A DNA stretch of 37,710 bases from positions 1 through 37,710 of IMG/VR virus record IMGVR_UViG_3300010233_000101; one strand, 5' to 3'. The DNA comes from a virus. The notes under the pieces are model-generated. The model searched no databases and had not been told where the DNA came from. It saw only the letters and a list, made by a program, of their open reading frames with translations. Of the stretch, positions 6,885 through 18,632 are shown one piece after another. Positions within the stretch are counted from its first letter, which is position 1; the number at the start of each line of letters is the position of its first letter. The position numbers and the translations under genes are program-made.

Positions 6885-7526
6885 ATGACTGATTCTAATT
6901 ATGTGTATGATAAAGGTACTCTATTTGTAGCGCGTGGTGGAGGAAGTGCTCCTGAACCATTGGCACCTGGAGCAGCTAACCAAGCTTTATTTGCAAATCC
7001 AGCGTCTGATTTAGGGGTTGAATGGGGTGCAGGAGATGCTATGGGTAATGTTGTCGGCCCTGTTAGCTCAACAGCGCATCACATTGCAGCATTTGCAGAC
7101 ACGACAGGCGAATTGCTTGAGGATTCTGGTATTCTTGTCGCTAACGTAGTGCAAGGGCCAGCATCGTCAACAGATAACGCTATTGCTCGTTATGATAGTA
7201 CTACTGGAAAGCTACTGCAAAACTCCCCTGCAACAATGGCCGACGTGACTGGGACAATCACGTTTCCAGCTGGGGGAGGTACTGTTTTAACTACTGGTGG
7301 AGGAGCAGCGCGCAAAGGAACATTTACTTTGACTGCTGGTGCTTCTGGAGATATCTCTACTACTTCTGTACTTACAGGGTCAGCTCTTTCGATTACAATC
7401 ACAGCTCTTGGTACTGTTACTGCGCCTAAACCTTTATTGGCAACAATAACAAACGGCTCTAAATTTGTAATTACGAGTGCAGACGGTACAGATACCTCAA
7501 GTGGTACCTGGGCGATTGTAGCATAA
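6885..7526 (+). CDS. Tail fibre-like repeat protein
   Basis: This 213-aa protein contains two repeats of a fibre signature: NVVGPVSSTAHHIAAFADTT and NVVQGPASSTDNAIARYDST, each followed by G-(E/K)-L-L-(E/Q)-(D/N)-S. The C-terminal half is Thr/Gly/Ala-rich beta sequence. It is the last gene of the rightward surface block and is followed by a hairpin terminator. The pattern is typical of phage structural repeats; the exact place in the virion is unknown. Confidence 0.6.
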   Translation: MTDSNYVYDKGTLFVARGGGSAPEPLAPGAANQALFANPASDLGVEWGAGDAMGNVVGPVSSTAHHIAAFADTTGELLEDSGILVANVVQGPASSTDNAIARYDSTTGKLLQNSPATMADVTGTITFPAGGGTVLTTGGGAARKGTFTLTAGASGDISTTSVLTGSALSITITALGTVTAPKPLLATITNGSKFVITSADGTDTSSGTWAIVA

Positions 7527-11190: not shown

Positions 11191-11979
11191 TTATTGTGAT
11201 AATTGTGCCATTTTTTCAGTTAAAGTCCAAAGAGCGGTATTGAGGCGTACATTTTCACCAACCGACTTCACTGGTACTGTTCTACGTCTAACGCCGTTAT
11301 CCGTACGATATCGTATTCCTCCTCGGATCATGTTCTCTTGGATGACATTGAATGTTGTCCAAAGATCATTCTTTGTGTCAGCAGAACGTCTTGGATCTAA
11401 AATTTCATCAGGCGTTAAAGGAAACTCGTCGTTTTCGTCTTTGTCCCATTTTAGTGCCATTGCAGCTTGTGCAAATACGACCTGTTGTTGTTTATTAAGC
11501 CCAACTCCCTGCCAATGGGTTGCTGTATGCATGCTTATCGGAACTAGATCGATCAGGTCATTTGCAGCTTCGACCACACGCTCAACGACATCTCCCTGGT
11601 GTTTAACTCGTCTGCAAAACATTTCGTCGCCGACAATCATTCCATTGGCGCAGACAAGTCGATAGATTCCAGCTCGAAGCTGATAACTTGTTGTCCCGTC
11701 ATGACTGTTCACTAGGACAATCTCGGGAACGATACCGCCTTTTTCAAGGCATGTCTCGTGGCGTAGTCGCATTATATGTTTGACGAACTCTTGGCGTCCT
11801 GGAATGCGTGTTCGCGATTGAGTGGCTAAAACAGGGTGAAAGCCAGACTTGCTCAATCCGCGAACGACTTCGATTGTAGGAATGAATCCATATCGTGAGC
11901 TCGTGTGCTCTGACCCACCAGTTGCGAAAATGCTAGGAGCTAATCTATTCAACTGGACTTCACTTAGAAAATTTGTCAT
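11191..11979 (-). CDS. DUF932 family protein (YfjQ-like)
   Basis: This 262-aa protein follows the E. coli YfjQ pattern along its whole length: RYGFIPTIEVV near the N-terminus, then PGRQEFVKHIMRLR, PEIVLVNSHDGTTSYQL, RLVCANGMIVGDE, HQGDVVERVVEAANDL, ILDPRRSADTKNDLWTTFN, QENMIRGG, and a final LNTALWTLTEKMAQL. DUF932 proteins are spread among prophages, plasmids and phages; their biochemical function is unsettled. AGAGGTC precedes the ATG. It is the largest gene of the leftward operon, separated from its neighbours by strong hairpins, which suggests its level is set separately. Family assignment is confident. Confidence 0.85.
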   Translation of the reverse strand: MTNFLSEVQLNRLAPSIFATGGSEHTSSRYGFIPTIEVVRGLSKSGFHPVLATQSRTRIPGRQEFVKHIMRLRHETCLEKGGIVPEIVLVNSHDGTTSYQLRAGIYRLVCANGMIVGDEMFCRRVKHQGDVVERVVEAANDLIDLVPISMHTATHWQGVGLNKQQQVVFAQAAMALKWDKDENDEFPLTPDEILDPRRSADTKNDLWTTFNVIQENMIRGGIRYRTDNGVRRRTVPVKSVGENVRLNTALWTLTEKMAQLSQ

Positions 11980-13370: not shown

Positions 13371-13878
13371 TGAAAATACATCACTGGGTGATCCTGTTTG
13401 TGGCAGTGGTGTGGTGGACAATTTTCCTGAACATGCTCCTGTCATCACTGACGCAAGATCATTAGAAAAAGAATTGTGCTGCATATGCAATGGAAATGGA
13501 ATTTTGCCTGGTGAAAATCCGCTGTGCGTAGATCACTATCAAAGCGAAGTGATTGAAAAGGGAAGAGCAGTAAGTGAAGCTGAAGCTCTTGGGATCAAAC
13601 TGTACTTTGATGAAGATACCAGCAGCTATATTATGACATTCGTAGAAGGCGCAAAGAGCATTTTCCAAGTAAAAATGGCTCCTGACGCATTCGAGAAGCT
13701 AACAAATGATATGATTAAGACAGTCAAAAATTACAATCTATATCAAGCACAAAAATTTCAGGAAGATCAAAAAGCAAACGAAAAAACTGGAGAACAAAAT
13801 GAAACAGAGCTCCATATCGGATCTGTCGTACAAGATAATGCGTGTGCCGATTGCCAGTGTGAGACTCAATCCGAATAA
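13354..13878 (+). CDS. Hypothetical protein with Cys cluster, 174 aa
   Basis: The protein has an N-terminal acidic segment, then CCICNGNGILPGENPLCVDHY (about residues 42-62), which could form a zinc site, a middle beta-like domain (KLYFDEDTSSYIMTFVEG) and a Gln/Glu-rich end with CADCQC. AGGA stands 7 nt before the ATG at 13354; an in-frame TTG six nt upstream is less likely. The last 80 nt overlap the first ParB-like gene in another frame. Function unknown, but the position suggests a role with the ParB-like proteins. Confidence 0.55.
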   Translation: MEQQNNENTSLGDPVCGSGVVDNFPEHAPVITDARSLEKELCCICNGNGILPGENPLCVDHYQSEVIEKGRAVSEAEALGIKLYFDEDTSSYIMTFVEGAKSIFQVKMAPDAFEKLTNDMIKTVKNYNLYQAQKFQEDQKANEKTGEQNETELHIGSVVQDNACADCQCETQSE

Positions 13879-14437
13879 TCCAAGGGTCATCACAGACGAA
13901 AACTTTATGTCTTTGGTTGAATCGATCAAGATGGATAGCTACATGCTATCCATCCGACCAATTGTTGTAGACATGAATATGGTTGTCCAAGGTGGAAACC
14001 AAAGGCTGAGAGCATGCCAAGTTGCAGGATTTAAGGAAATCTATATCATCAAAGCTGATGATTTATCAACTGATCAATTGCGCGAATTTGTTATCAAAGA
14101 CAACCTGCACTTTGGCGAGTGGGACAAGAAGACTCTTGCTATTCATTATTCAGACAAAGAGATGATTGAGTTAGGTATGGACCTGGTTGAGGTATCTACC
14201 CCAAGGATGGAAACAATAGGTGACATCGAGCCAGAGATAGACGCATCTGATCTTTCAAAAAAGAAAGAAACTTATGATAACAATAAAATAAAACAAATTG
14301 TAGTCTATTACCCATCAGATATTTACGAAAAGGTTATTAATTCAATAAACTTGATTAAAGATAAAATGAGATGCAAAGAGAATCCTGAATTTCTACTCAA
14401 ACTTATTAGTTACTGGAAAATGAATTATGGAAAATAA
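13799..14437 (+). CDS. ParB-like (ParB/Srx N-terminal domain) protein, copy 1
   Basis: Residues about 13-110 match the ParB/Srx N-terminal domain: VPIASVRLNPNNPR, then IRPIVVDMNMVVQGGNQR with G65-G-N-Q-R69 where ParB has its GxRR nucleotide motif, then RACQVAGF and LREFVIKDNLHFGEWD. There is no ParB helix-turn-helix DNA-binding domain. The remainder is a helical C-terminal part (KQIVVYYPSDIYEKVI). GGAG is 7 nt before the ATG. Phage proteins of this type often sit beside DNA-modification and terminase genes. It may use CTP or act as a nuclease-like switch; neither is shown here. Confidence 0.75.
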   Translation: MKQSSISDLSYKIMRVPIASVRLNPNNPRVITDENFMSLVESIKMDSYMLSIRPIVVDMNMVVQGGNQRLRACQVAGFKEIYIIKADDLSTDQLREFVIKDNLHFGEWDKKTLAIHYSDKEMIELGMDLVEVSTPRMETIGDIEPEIDASDLSKKKETYDNNKIKQIVVYYPSDIYEKVINSINLIKDKMRCKENPEFLLKLISYWKMNYGK

Positions 14438-15107
14438 AAATCAATACAAAGTTGAGTTAGTAGAAATAGATAAAGTTAAGGTGAATTTAAATAATCCTAG
14501 GACTATAGACAAAAAGAAGTTTAATTTACTAAAAAAATCAATCAAAGATGCCTTGTGGATGCTGAAAATACGCCCAATCGTGGTTGACAAGGACTGTGTT
14601 GTGCTTGGTGGCAACATGCGATTCAAAGCTTGCTCAGAGCTCGGATTGCAATTTGTTTGGGTCATGTGTGTTGATGATATCACAGATGAACAAGCTCGAA
14701 GATTCATTATCAGAGATAACGTGGATTTTGGCACCTGGGATATGGAATTGCTAGAGAAGCAATATTCTCAACAGGGGCTTTTAAGCTATGGTGCGGAGAT
14801 TCAACTTCTAGTGCAAAAGCAACTTGATTTAGAAGATTCACCTAAGCTGCCCCCTATGTTCGACGAAGATGATGAAGAGCCAGAAATTGATGAAAAGGAA
14901 TTTCAAGACTCTCAAAAGTCTTTCAATGACAATGCCATAAAGCAAATTGTTTTTCAGTTGCCTGATGATATCTATGAGGATACCCTGAAGAGCATGGATC
15001 AAATTTCACGAGATCTAGATCTTAATGATAATAGCGAAGTGCTACTAAGTTTAATCAATTTTTATCAGGTGAATAATGAACTGGACAGTGCCGATATTCA
15101 TACCTAG
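14427..15107 (+). CDS. ParB-like (ParB/Srx N-terminal domain) protein, copy 2
   Basis: This 226-aa protein is a tandem paralogue of copy 1: LNNPRTIDKKKF, KIRPIVVDKDCVVLGGNMR with G61-G-N-M-R65, FKACSELGL, RRFIIRDNVDFGTWD, and a matching C-terminal segment (KQIVFQLPDDIYEDTL). An acidic insert (EDDEEPEIDEKEFQD) separates the two halves. It overlaps copy 1 by 11 nt and the glycosyltransferase-like gene by 32 nt, so all three should be made together. Two unequal copies suggest a heterodimer or two specificities; this is inference. Confidence 0.75.
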   Translation: MENKNQYKVELVEIDKVKVNLNNPRTIDKKKFNLLKKSIKDALWMLKIRPIVVDKDCVVLGGNMRFKACSELGLQFVWVMCVDDITDEQARRFIIRDNVDFGTWDMELLEKQYSQQGLLSYGAEIQLLVQKQLDLEDSPKLPPMFDEDDEEPEIDEKEFQDSQKSFNDNAIKQIVFQLPDDIYEDTLKSMDQISRDLDLNDNSEVLLSLINFYQVNNELDSADIHT

Positions 15108-15807
15108 CAAAGGCAGGGCGGGAAAGACAAAGACGGATAAGTTATTGCGTGAAGCGGGACTTAATCATACATTTTTTGTAGAATCTCAAGATTATAATTC
15201 GTATAGAGCAGCAGGGAACTTTGCTTATGTCTTGGATGAAGATAATCAAGGTATTACATATGCAAGGCAGCAAATTTTAGATTTTGCTAGACGCAATGGC
15301 TATCATCAATTTTGGATGCTTGATGACGACATAGAATGTTTTGGAGAAGCAAATGATGGAAAAACTACTCCAACAAGCGCGGAAGTGCTCCTTAAAGCAT
15401 ATAACCAATTACAATTTTACGGTCCAGCTAGTCTTTACTCGCTTGAACTACGACAGTTTGCGTGGACGGCTCCATCAGTACAAAAAGATAAAATTGCAAT
15501 GCAGTGCGTGTTGTTTGATCTACAACATTGTGAGAACATAAATTATGATCTGAGACTCAAAATTCGGGAAGACTATGATTTAAGTTTTCAAGCTATCCTA
15601 AAAGGAAAAGGCGTGCTAAAAAGCGGGAAATATTATTATGGAATTGCCGACATGAAGTCCCAGCCTGGGGGAATGTCTCAATGGTACAATCAAGAGACTG
15701 AAATGCATGAGACGTGGAAGCTTTGCCGTAAGTGGCCTGGACTAGTAGAGCCATTGAAAAAAGATGGAAGAATAGACGTGAAAATAAATTGGAAGAAAAT
15801 AAAATGA
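15076..15807 (+). CDS. TET-associated glycosyltransferase-like protein (GT-A fold)
   Basis: This 243-aa protein opens NWTVPIFIPSKGRAGK and continues LLREAGLNHTFFVESQDY, NQGITYARQQIL and WMLDDDIECF. Asp83-Asp84-Asp85 supply the DxD metal and nucleotide-sugar site of GT-A enzymes, and REDYDLSFQAIL lies where a catalytic acidic residue is expected. This is the pattern of the TAGT family, described computationally beside phage TET/JBP dioxygenases, where it is proposed to glycosylate 5-hydroxymethylcytosine in DNA. The dioxygenase gene follows, after one small gene. The sugar used cannot be read from the sequence. Family assignment is fairly confident. Confidence 0.8.
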   Translation: MNWTVPIFIPSKGRAGKTKTDKLLREAGLNHTFFVESQDYNSYRAAGNFAYVLDEDNQGITYARQQILDFARRNGYHQFWMLDDDIECFGEANDGKTTPTSAEVLLKAYNQLQFYGPASLYSLELRQFAWTAPSVQKDKIAMQCVLFDLQHCENINYDLRLKIREDYDLSFQAILKGKGVLKSGKYYYGIADMKSQPGGMSQWYNQETEMHETWKLCRKWPGLVEPLKKDGRIDVKINWKKIK

Positions 15808-16022
15808 AAGTTGATTTTGGTAAGAATTCATCGGTATTAGATTTAATTAGAATGATTAGATGTCTTGAAGCAATGGAAATATATAGTGGATCAGATTATG
15901 GAGATTCTATTGCGGTAAAGTCTTCTGAATTGCTCAAAATTGTTTATTTAGAGCTAGGTGCTCAAATCGCTTTCACTGTCGAAGATATTGAAATCGAGGA
16001 ATTAGAAAATGAAAGTGATTGA
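15804..16022 (+). CDS. Small acidic protein between glycosyltransferase and dioxygenase
   Basis: The ATG at 15804 overlaps the glycosyltransferase stop as ATGA, giving 72 residues (MKVDFGKNSSVLDLIRMIR...) ending in a strongly acidic stretch (VEDIEIEELENESD). A longer in-frame start at 15732 would overlap by 76 nt and is less likely. It overlaps the dioxygenase gene by 14 nt. It could be an accessory subunit of the modification enzymes; no family recognised. Confidence 0.55.
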   Translation: MKVDFGKNSSVLDLIRMIRCLEAMEIYSGSDYGDSIAVKSSELLKIVYLELGAQIAFTVEDIEIEELENESD

Positions 16023-16839
16023 AATTCAACCTAAAAAAGTAGACTTAAAAAAATATAAAATGCGCCCTGCTCTGGAAGATGATTGCTCTGAGTTAGTCGA
16101 TTACGATTGTCTAGTTACTGTGAATGGAAGTCCACGCATTCTTTATTGCTCAATTGAAGATGCGTTAACAATGAGCCTAAGATGGGCTGTAAAGACTATT
16201 GATTATTTAGTTGATAATCGAACTTCTGGTCTTAAATCTTCATCTTCAATTTTTGGTTACTCGCCTAGGATTCCTCTTAGACATGATTTTTGTACTTCAA
16301 CAGCCATGTCACGCAATTTTCCAAAACAGCACTACATTATCTGTGGCTTTGCTAAAGAATTGATAAAGCTGTATGAATGCTTTTTTAGTGAGACCCTGGA
16401 ACGTCACTATCAACACTGTAATTTAAAAGTAAAAGATGAGTGGAAGCTTCCAGGGACTCCTTTTACTTCAGGTATAGTCAACAAAAATAATCCGCTAAAA
16501 TATCATCACGATGCTGGTAATTTTAAAAATGTGCTCAGCAATATGATTGTGCTGAAAAGAGGTGTCGAAGGCGGTCGCCTAGCTTGTCCTGAATTTGATA
16601 TTAAATTTGAATGTGCCGATAATCATGTAGTGATTTTTGACGGTGCTGAAATTTTACATGGTGTCACTCCAATCATTAAGCCACAAGACGACGAAAGTAG
16701 TTATAGATACTCTGTGGTATATTATTCACTGGAACAAATGTGGAATTGCGAGAATATAAATGAAGAAGTCAAAAGAATCAGAAAAGTCAAAAAGCAAAGA
16801 GAATTCAAGAGAATTGGTGGATCCGAAAATAGTAATTAA
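16009..16839 (+). CDS. TET/JBP-like 2-oxoglutarate/Fe(II) dioxygenase
   Basis: This 276-aa protein likely oxidises 5-methylcytosine in phage DNA. The double-stranded beta-helix core lies in the C-terminal half: YHHDAGNF gives the iron ligands H166-x-D168, LSNMIVLKRGVEGGRLACP is the conserved following strand pair, VIFDGAEILHGVTPI gives the distal iron ligand His217, and YRYSVVYYS gives Arg233 for binding 2-oxoglutarate. All four key residues are present. GAGGA precedes the ATG by about 8 nt. The neighbouring TAGT-like gene supports a DNA-base role over other 2OG dioxygenases, although a protein or nucleotide substrate is not excluded. No 5mC methyltransferase is visible in the window. Confidence 0.8.
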   Translation: MKVIEIQPKKVDLKKYKMRPALEDDCSELVDYDCLVTVNGSPRILYCSIEDALTMSLRWAVKTIDYLVDNRTSGLKSSSSIFGYSPRIPLRHDFCTSTAMSRNFPKQHYIICGFAKELIKLYECFFSETLERHYQHCNLKVKDEWKLPGTPFTSGIVNKNNPLKYHHDAGNFKNVLSNMIVLKRGVEGGRLACPEFDIKFECADNHVVIFDGAEILHGVTPIIKPQDDESSYRYSVVYYSLEQMWNCENINEEVKRIRKVKKQREFKRIGGSENSN

Positions 16840-17287
16840 AAAGAATCGATATTGCAAGCCTCCAATAGCTAATAAATATAAGCCGACTGAACAAGATAAA
16901 AAGATTGCTTATTCATATGCTGCTTATGGTGCCACTAACGAGGATATCGCAGCAGTCCTAGGCATGGATAACAAAACATTAACTAAGCATTTTCCAGAAG
17001 AACTTCTTAGCGGAAGGGCAACCGCAAAAAACACGATTGCGCAGCGTCTATACAATATCGCAATCGGAAAAGATGCTGTTATTGATCCAGTGACTCATGA
17101 ATTAATTGCAGCAGCAATTAAACCCAATTTATCAGCGTTGATATTCCTGGCTAAGACAAGGTTAGGATGGAAAGAGACCGCTATTTTAGAACAAAAAGTC
17201 GATATGCAGACATCAGGTGTTACGATTTATCTACCCGACAATGGTATGCAAATCGTATCAGAAACTAGCGAAATAATTGATGCATGA
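16760..17287 (+). CDS. Terminase small subunit
   Basis: This 175-aa protein has a Lys-rich N-terminus, a helix-turn-helix (YAAYGATNEDIAAVLGMDNKT, about residues 53-75), a helical oligomerisation part and the typical end of the HTH segment KPNLSALIFLAKTRLGWKE. It recognises phage DNA and guides the large terminase. The start overlaps the dioxygenase gene by 80 nt, an unusual length; a later start at GTG or TTG codons near 16815 would reduce this, but the ATG is plausible. It is directly followed by the large terminase gene with an 8-nt overlap. Confidence 0.8.
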   Translation: MKKSKESEKSKSKENSRELVDPKIVIKKNRYCKPPIANKYKPTEQDKKIAYSYAAYGATNEDIAAVLGMDNKTLTKHFPEELLSGRATAKNTIAQRLYNIAIGKDAVIDPVTHELIAAAIKPNLSALIFLAKTRLGWKETAILEQKVDMQTSGVTIYLPDNGMQIVSETSEIIDA

Positions 17288-18632
17288 TCTTGAATTAAGA
17301 CCTCAGAAAGGCCCGCAAGAAGCTTTTTTAAGCAATAGAGCAGATATTGTTATCTATGGGGGTGCTGCCGGAGGGGGGAAGACCTTCGCTTTACTTTTAG
17401 AATGTCTCAGGTGGATTAGGGTTCCACAGTTCTCAGCAGTCATATTTAGAAGGAATTCGACTCAAGTTCGCAATCCAGGTGGCCTTTGGGATACTTCTAT
17501 GACAATGTATCCGCTAGTCAGTGGTTACCCTAAACAATCTGTCCTTGAGTGGAAATTTCCAGCTGGATCAAAGATTACATTCGCTCATATGGAACATGAT
17601 AACGATCGCTTCAATTGGCAAGGAAGTCAAATTCCTTTGATTGGTTTCGATGAGCTGACTCACTTTTCATGGCAACAGTTCATGTATATGTTTTCGAGGA
17701 ATCGCTCTGTATCCGGCGTGCCCTCATACATTCGAGCAACAACCAATCCAGACCCTGATAGTTGGGTAAGGGCATTTATTGACTGGTGGATTGATCCTAT
17801 TTCAGGGTTTGCCATCCCGGAAAGATCGGGTGTTGTCCGCTGGTTTGTGATAGAAAGTGACAAAGTCATTTGGGCCGATACTAAAGCGCAACTCTTACAA
17901 AAAGACTCGACCAGGCTTCCAAAAAGTTTTAGTTTTGTAGCCTCAACAATTTTTGATAACAAAATCCTTCTTGAACGTGATCCAGGCTATCTTGCTTCTC
18001 TCAAAGCTTTGTCTCGATACGAAAGATTACAGCTTCTTGATGGGAACTGGAATGTGCGCCCAACCTCTGGAATGTTTTTTCAGCGTTCATTTTTTTATGT
18101 TTGTGATGTGCTTCCAAGGAATTGCACATTTGTTCGGTACTGGGATAGAGCAGCCACTAGAAAGACTGAAAATAATGATCCCGACTATACAGTGGGATTA
18201 AAAATGGCTAAAGATAAAAACGGAATATTTTATATATGTGACGTTGTTAGATTGCAAGAAAGCCCTCTACACGTGCAGAATGCTATTAAAAATACAGCTT
18301 CACAAGACGGCCCGTTATGCAAGATTGGTATTGAGCAGGACCCTGGTCAAGCAGGAGTTAGCGAAGTTGATTTGTTGATTAGAATGCTATCCGGTTATAA
18401 TGTTAAGCCGTATAGAGCTACGAAGGACAAAGTAACCAGAGCTTCTCCTGTTAGTGCTCAAGCAGAAGCAGGAAATGTCAGGGTGTTAAGAGGGCCATGG
18501 AATGAAGATTTTTTCAAAGAACTTGAAAACTTTCCAGAAGCTAATCACGATGATATAGTTGATGCATTGAGCGGTGCGTTTCTGATGCACACAGAGTCCA
18601 ATTACAATTTTGAAGCATTCATAAAAATGTAG
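17280..18632 (+). CDS. Terminase large subunit
   Basis: The 450-aa motor and nuclease packs DNA into the prohead. Walker A is GGAAGGGKT (Lys34, Thr35), Walker B is IPLIGFDELTHF (Asp124, Glu125), ATTNPDPD follows as coupling motif, and the C-terminal RNase H-like nuclease has RYWDRAAT (Asp289), GIEQDPGQAG (Glu352, Asp354) and NHDDIVDALSGA (Asp424/425, Asp428). Length fits. The ATG at 17280 is preferred to the TTG three nt upstream. It overlaps the small terminase by 8 nt. Confidence 0.95.
   Translation: MHDLELRPQKGPQEAFLSNRADIVIYGGAAGGGKTFALLLECLRWIRVPQFSAVIFRRNSTQVRNPGGLWDTSMTMYPLVSGYPKQSVLEWKFPAGSKITFAHMEHDNDRFNWQGSQIPLIGFDELTHFSWQQFMYMFSRNRSVSGVPSYIRATTNPDPDSWVRAFIDWWIDPISGFAIPERSGVVRWFVIESDKVIWADTKAQLLQKDSTRLPKSFSFVASTIFDNKILLERDPGYLASLKALSRYERLQLLDGNWNVRPTSGMFFQRSFFYVCDVLPRNCTFVRYWDRAATRKTENNDPDYTVGLKMAKDKNGIFYICDVVRLQESPLHVQNAIKNTASQDGPLCKIGIEQDPGQAGVSEVDLLIRMLSGYNVKPYRATKDKVTRASPVSAQAEAGNVRVLRGPWNEDFFKELENFPEANHDDIVDALSGAFLMHTESNYNFEAFIKM

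Follow-up and report, generated by a model that had tools for sequence, protein, structure and literature searches.

A TET/JBP-TAGT gene cassette of uncultivated phages as a predicted DNA hypermodification system, probably acting on thymine

In the kinetoplastid base J system, thymine in DNA is oxidised to 5-hydroxymethyluracil (5hmU) by JBP1 and JBP2, and the product is glycosylated by JGT. A tail consisting of a kinase and an amino acid:DNA transferase is characteristic of thymidine hypermodification and needs 5hmU. The DNA of Pseudomonas phage M6 carries a modified thymidine, 5-aminoethyl-deoxyuridine (PMC6449724), and the ParB-TET-ADDT-kinase set of Rhodococcus phage Tonitrus has been described in the literature as a system for thymine hypermodification (PMC11955845); ADDT denotes the Pfam amino acid:DNA transferase (PF18724). 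The characterised phage TET systems are described as cytosine-based in the passage of PMC12730594 that cites Burke et al. 2021, and TAGT glycosyltransferases act on glucosyl-hmC in T6-like phages (PMC13390438). Glucosylated 5hmU had not been reported from phages as of 2019 (PMC6449724; the later literature was only partly checked).

The window analyzed here is an IMG/VR virus record of 37,710 bases, taken at its full length (G000). It belongs to a contractile-tailed phage, with Pfam matches to baseplate-J and baseplate-hub proteins. The record is not complete; a check for terminal repeats found none, and it is a few kilobases shorter than the collinear record G001. The window encodes a TET/JBP-family dioxygenase and a TAGT glycosyltransferase, and this pair very probably hypermodifies the phage DNA.

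Organization and proteins of the cassette

The cassette and the adjoining genes are as follows:

13799-14437, plus strand: ParB-N-like protein 1 (PF02195, E 6e-6; PHROG 620/940, ParB-like)
14427-15107, plus strand: ParB-N-like protein 2 (PF02195, E 2e-5, slightly below the cut-off; PHROG 940/8071/620)
15076-15807, plus strand: TAGT glycosyltransferase (PF20691, E 1e-18; predicted GT-A fold; DDD metal site at residues 83-85)
15804-16022, plus strand: small acidic ORF, 72 aa from the ATG at 15804 (ATGA overlap with the TAGT stop; not conserved)
16009-16839, plus strand: TET/JBP-family 2OG-Fe(II) dioxygenase of clade A (N171, L241), 276 aa (PF12851, E 4e-12)
16760-17287, plus strand: terminase small subunit, start codon uncertain, overlapping TET (PHROG 309, E 4e-9)
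17277-18632, plus strand: terminase large subunit (PF03237/PF17289; PHROG 979, E 2e-169)

The gene order ParB-ParB-TAGT-(small ORF)-TET-TerS-TerL is compact. The start of the small ORF overlaps the TAGT stop codon, the TET start lies inside the small ORF, and because of these overlaps the cassette has the appearance of one operon. The position between two ParB-like genes and the terminase, proposed in the initial annotation, was confirmed by the PF02195 matches and the terminase matches downstream; the first ParB-like protein also matches the N-terminal part of a ParB-methyltransferase family. The gene order is common to many uncultivated phages, and the contigs nearest to the window have the same operon, in which the number of ParB genes is one or two. 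As the same order recurs in many independent contigs, a chance arrangement is excluded. The small acidic protein described in the middle of the cassette does exist as an ORF, probably starting at the ATG at 15804, and Pfam and PHROG searches yielded no match for it. It was rejected as a conserved component: it is missing in the sister contig L002, and L001 has other ORFs instead.

The protein encoded at 16009-16839 matched the Pfam family Tet_JBP with 46.1 bits, versus a cut-off of 34.9 (E 4.1e-12). The TET/JBP core residues are kept, as had been claimed: H166, D168, H217, and R233 align to the Fe/2OG residues of TET2. Of the 103 other phage TETs compared, all have H166 and D168, and 102 have H217 and R233; the remaining row is gapped there. 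AlphaFold models of TET and TAGT were built on alignments of the window and locus proteins. For TET (pLDDT 92.4), a DSBH fold like that of TET2 and NgTet1 was predicted, and the VIA comparisons gave Z values of 20.5 for TET2 (rmsd 4.0, 251 residues), 19.5 for NgTet1 (rmsd 3.4, 220 residues), and about 19.5-19.6 for CMD1. FTO and AlkB proteins remained well under these values, with Z of about 15 and below, and no JBP structure was among the fold matches listed. The window TET consists of a single domain, and its alignment with TET catalytic domains covers the full length. When solved structures were searched, the single sequences gave no match, and only a profile matched TET2 and CMD1. The protein is predicted to be a methyl oxidase acting on DNA, with thymine (or 5mC) as substrate.

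The TAGT protein (15076-15807) scored 68.5 bits, versus a cut-off of 27.5. Its opening PSKGRAGK and its D83-D84-D85 site, both pointed out in the initial annotation, are present, and the metal site is conserved. The model (pLDDT 93.8) has a GT-A fold and was most similar to UDP-sugar GT-A enzymes (VIA Z 14-15.5, best 15.5); among solved structures, protein and teichoic-acid glycosyltransferases have the nearest folds. The AlphaFold and VIA results yielded the folds that had been anticipated for the two proteins, TET/JBP for 16009-16839 and GT-A for 15076-15807.

Elsewhere in the window, 6885-7526 encodes a K1-lyase C-terminal domain (PF24146), which is typical of the C-terminal part of tailspikes, and 11191-11979 (minus strand) encodes a DUF932 protein (PF06067, E 3e-41) that is conserved in G001, G003, and G004. 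Counts of palindromes revealed mild avoidance only (CATG 0.75, ACGT 0.80); together with the dinucleotide counts, they were uninformative on the modified base.

Two clades of phage TET proteins and their partner enzymes

A scan of IMG/VR with a TET profile found 510 relatives, of which 80 were kept, and a TAGT scan yielded 63 loci. Related TETs also occur in cultured mycobacterial, gordonial, arthrobacterial, and microbacterial phages, where the genes are often annotated as "queuine tRNA-ribosyltransferase", and a TAGT relative is present in Nonlabens phage P12024L. In a maximum-likelihood tree, calculated by a quick method and with long-branch warnings, the phage TETs split into clade A, which includes the window, and clade B (SH-aLRT 99 each). 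Clade A is characterized by H-x-D-x-x-N (Asn171) and by Leu241, rarely Met or Ile, located eight residues beyond the 2OG Arg. At the equivalent positions, H-x-D-x-x-D (one Asn) and Arg (one Asp) are found in clade B.

Both positions correspond to contacts with the flipped base in known TETs. N4 of 5mC is contacted by the first, which is Asn1387 in TET2, Asp234 in NgTet1, and Asp350 in CMD1, and N3 or O2 of 5mC by the second, which is His1904, His297, and Arg418 in the same order (PMC7854593, PMC11040006). His or Arg is found at the second contact in TET2, NgTet1, CMD1, and CcTet; the window protein, with Leu241, lacks this feature of the 5mC-oxidising TETs. The Asp and Arg of clade B look like the base contacts of the cytosine enzyme CMD1. 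In clade A, the amide could face N4 of cytosine or O4 of thymine, and the second polar contact is lost. The clade A residues are only suggestive, because TET2, a 5mC enzyme, also has Asn at the position of N171, and an Asp-to-Asn mutant of CMD1 gained no thymine activity (PMC7854593).

The partner enzymes of clade A were not uniform. Among 89 loci, 64 had TAGT, 13 had a P-loop kinase (alone or together with ADDT), and 12 had neither; no locus had both. Three of the ADDT/kinase loci (L026, L030, and L081) nest among TAGT loci on the TET tree, which shows that one oxygenase clade serves both finishing routes. In the window, TAGT stands in place of the kinase/ADDT finishing enzymes that occur with clade A TETs elsewhere: the Pfam and PHROG matches of the window include neither a 5hmU kinase nor ADDT, and the kinase family PF18751 was not found in G001-G005. 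The ADDT proteins are homologous to gp51 of phage M6 (pairwise E 4e-10 and 2e-11), and an independent profile agrees; the clade A kinases reached only marginal scores against the M6 kinase.

A ParB gene is located upstream of TET in 60 of 60 clade A loci with enough upstream sequence, compared with 6 of 24 clade B loci. The order of the two enzymes also differs, i.e., ParB-TAGT-TET in the window and TET-TAGT in clade B. The clade A loci were fetched mainly by TET alone and the clade B loci mostly via TAGT, so the TAGT frequency in clade B is biased by selection.

Neither finishing enzyme turned out to be a clean indicator of thymine. ADDT is weakened as a marker by Caulobacter phage Cr30, where it accompanies a clade B TET, and the kinase by phage Melnitz, a clade B case with a C5-methyltransferase, TET, and a weak kinase match. 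The Cr30 locus (L148:5410-10573) also encodes a weak TAGT-like protein and a member of the thymidylate synthase family; its ADDT match is strong (PF18724, E 1e-52), and no C5-methyltransferase was found in Cr30. Gene 3 of Mycobacterium phage Nigel (L152:1786-2382), annotated as "terminase small subunit", has a strong match to the P-loop nucleotide kinase family PF18751 and adjoins TET. Some of the clade A loci with neither TAGT nor kinase/ADDT have a different protein in the place that TAGT takes in the window, between ParB and TET. Of four such proteins (L019:1130-2029, L022:7300-8004, L027:6809-7711, L031:7314-7997), one has a weak glycosyltransferase match, one matches an FkbM methyltransferase, and two are without any match. 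These are possible further finishing enzymes. A ParB-TAGT-TET-terminase cassette was also found in a contig of an Ignavibacteria MAG (L158:2594-4224), which provides a lead to a host group.

The modified base and the source of its hydroxymethyl group

A cytosine-5 methyltransferase had not been seen in the window, and a PF00145 search of the window was likewise negative. The initial annotation had offered two explanations, a methyltransferase elsewhere in the genome or a dependence on host-made 5mC. The presence of METHYLTRANSFERASE outside the window was checked via two close relatives with terminal redundancy, G003 (41.9 kb, exact terminal repeat of 123 bases) and G004 (44.4 kb, 235 bases with one mismatch), which were therefore taken as complete. 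Both have the ParB-TAGT-TET cassette, and neither contains PF00145 or PF00303; a methyltransferase was also not found among the ten larger ORFs of the early region of G003. The 38 clade A records searched, among them complete actinophage genomes and the two relatives, were all without PF00145, compared with its presence in 4 of 21 clade B records (Fisher p 0.013), and C5-methyltransferases were found beside clade B TETs only.

PF00303, the dUMP hydroxymethylase family, is carried by phage M6. It was absent from the window, from G001-G005, and from the complete genomes of Wooper, Tonitrus, and Nigel. Wooper and Tonitrus are complete actinophages with a clade A TET, ADDT, and kinase; as both lack PF00145 as well as PF00303, TET is the sole identifiable maker of 5hmU for their kinase and ADDT. 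The cultured Nonlabens phage P12024L (L003, complete) encodes a clade B TET, TAGT, and an N4/N6 methyltransferase; PF00145 and PF00303 are both absent from it. Since complete clade B isolates such as this one also lack PF00145, the absence of a methyltransferase alone is no proof of thymine. For clade A, the lack of a C5-methyltransferase is normal and would most simply be explained by thymine as the substrate.

Taken together, thymine is probably the modified base: TET would oxidise thymine in DNA to 5hmU, TAGT would glycosylate it, and ParB would help to target the modification. The cassette would be a post-replicative DNA hypermodification operon. The dioxygenase would flip the base out of the phage DNA and hydroxylate its C5-methyl group, most likely that of thymine itself, and therefore no methyltransferase would be needed. 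TAGT would then move a sugar from a nucleotide-sugar onto the new hydroxymethyl group, and the resulting glycosyl-5hmU would work like base J. The ParB-like proteins may bind to DNA or slide along it and guide the modification, perhaps in coordination with packaging, and the bulky base would block host restriction nucleases.

The initial annotation had called the locus a cytosine hypermodification cassette. DNA-base hypermodification by TET/JBP and TAGT was retained, and the assignment to cytosine was not, in view of the thymidine-pathway partners of clade A and the lack of a C5-methyltransferase. If cytosine were the base, TET would oxidise 5mC stemming from host (or otherwise acquired) C5-methylation, and TAGT would glycosylate 5hmC. 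The cytosine-based precedents, the use of TAGT on glucosyl-hmC by T6-like phages, and the Asn shared with TET2 agree with such a pathway. However, it is unlikely, as clade A never occurs with a C5-methyltransferase, enzymes of the thymidine pathway can take the place of its partners, and the His/Arg contact is lost. Moreover, dependence on a host enzyme would be hard to keep across many phages and diverse hosts (actinobacteria, the Ignavibacteria MAG). With 38 clade A records devoid of a C5-methyltransferase and an alternation of TAGT and kinase/ADDT, reliance on host-made 5mC is not the favored interpretation.

Base J marks transcription ends. The cassette could also write a targeted regulatory mark at few ParB-set sites instead of conferring genome-wide protection, and the invariable upstream ParB in the 60 clade A loci tested and the adjoining terminase genes would fit this idea. 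It is nevertheless rather improbable, because the sequences gave no evidence for particular sites and no target motif was found. That TET acts on thymine or 5mC while TAGT, a neighbor by chance, has a protein or cell-surface target, as its nearest solved folds might suggest, is very improbable in light of the 64 clade A loci in which TAGT adjoins TET, out of 89 that were collected mainly with TET alone, the adjacency in reversed order in clade B, and the mutually exclusive swap with the DNA-acting ADDT/kinase at the same place.

With thymine as the preferred substrate, it appears on balance that a widespread class of phages makes a counterpart of base J, in which a JBP-like dioxygenase acts on thymine, TAGT on 5hmU, and ParB-like proteins in targeting, and in which the oxygenase clade can swap between sugar and amino-acid-type finishing. 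If true, this would be a methyltransferase-free phage route to hypermodified thymine at the DNA level, a bacterial analogue of base J, and a source of new enzymes with which modified thymine could be written or mapped. The sequence rule HxDxxN plus Leu versus HxDxxD plus Arg would predict the substrate base of phage TETs.

Comparison with known systems

The TET/JBP-TAGT systems of the cytosine type (clade B: P12024L, contigs L110, L123, and L124) share with the window a TET/JBP dioxygenase next to TAGT. They differ by HxDxxD and Arg, the order TET-TAGT, a C5-methyltransferase in some of them, and an upstream ParB in a minority of loci, whereas the window has HxDxxN and Leu, the order ParB-TAGT-TET, and no methyltransferase was found in it. 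Likewise, the phage-encoded C5-methyltransferase of the cytosine system composed of C5-methyltransferase, TET, and glycosyltransferase was not found in the window.

The ParB-TET-(ADDT)-kinase modules of the actinophages, i.e., Rhodococcus phage Tonitrus, Gordonia phage Wooper, Mycobacterium phage Nigel, and Arthrobacter phage Kharcho, resemble the window in having a clade A TET, an upstream ParB, a location just before the terminase genes, and no C5-methyltransferase. Where the window has TAGT, they contain a P-loop kinase, in some cases together with an amino acid:DNA transferase. Arthrobacter phage Bolt007 (L154:4803-7074) shares with the window the set of ParB, clade A TET, and a glycosyltransferase with a weak TAGT match, but TAGT follows TET, and an additional PIG-L deacetylase is encoded, which suggests an amino sugar on the modified base.

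With the thymidine hypermodification of the M6 type, 5hmU would be the common intermediate. M6 has PF00303 and builds on 5hmdU, in contrast to the window and its complete relatives, which are without PF00303. The kinetoplastid JBP has a J-DNA-binding domain, unlike the window TET, a single domain of 276 aa without one, and the glycosyltransferase is JGT in the kinetoplastids and of the TAGT family in the window. The likeness to base J lies in the proposed chemistry, which leads from thymine via 5hmU to glycosylation and which, for the window, is deduced from the genomic context.
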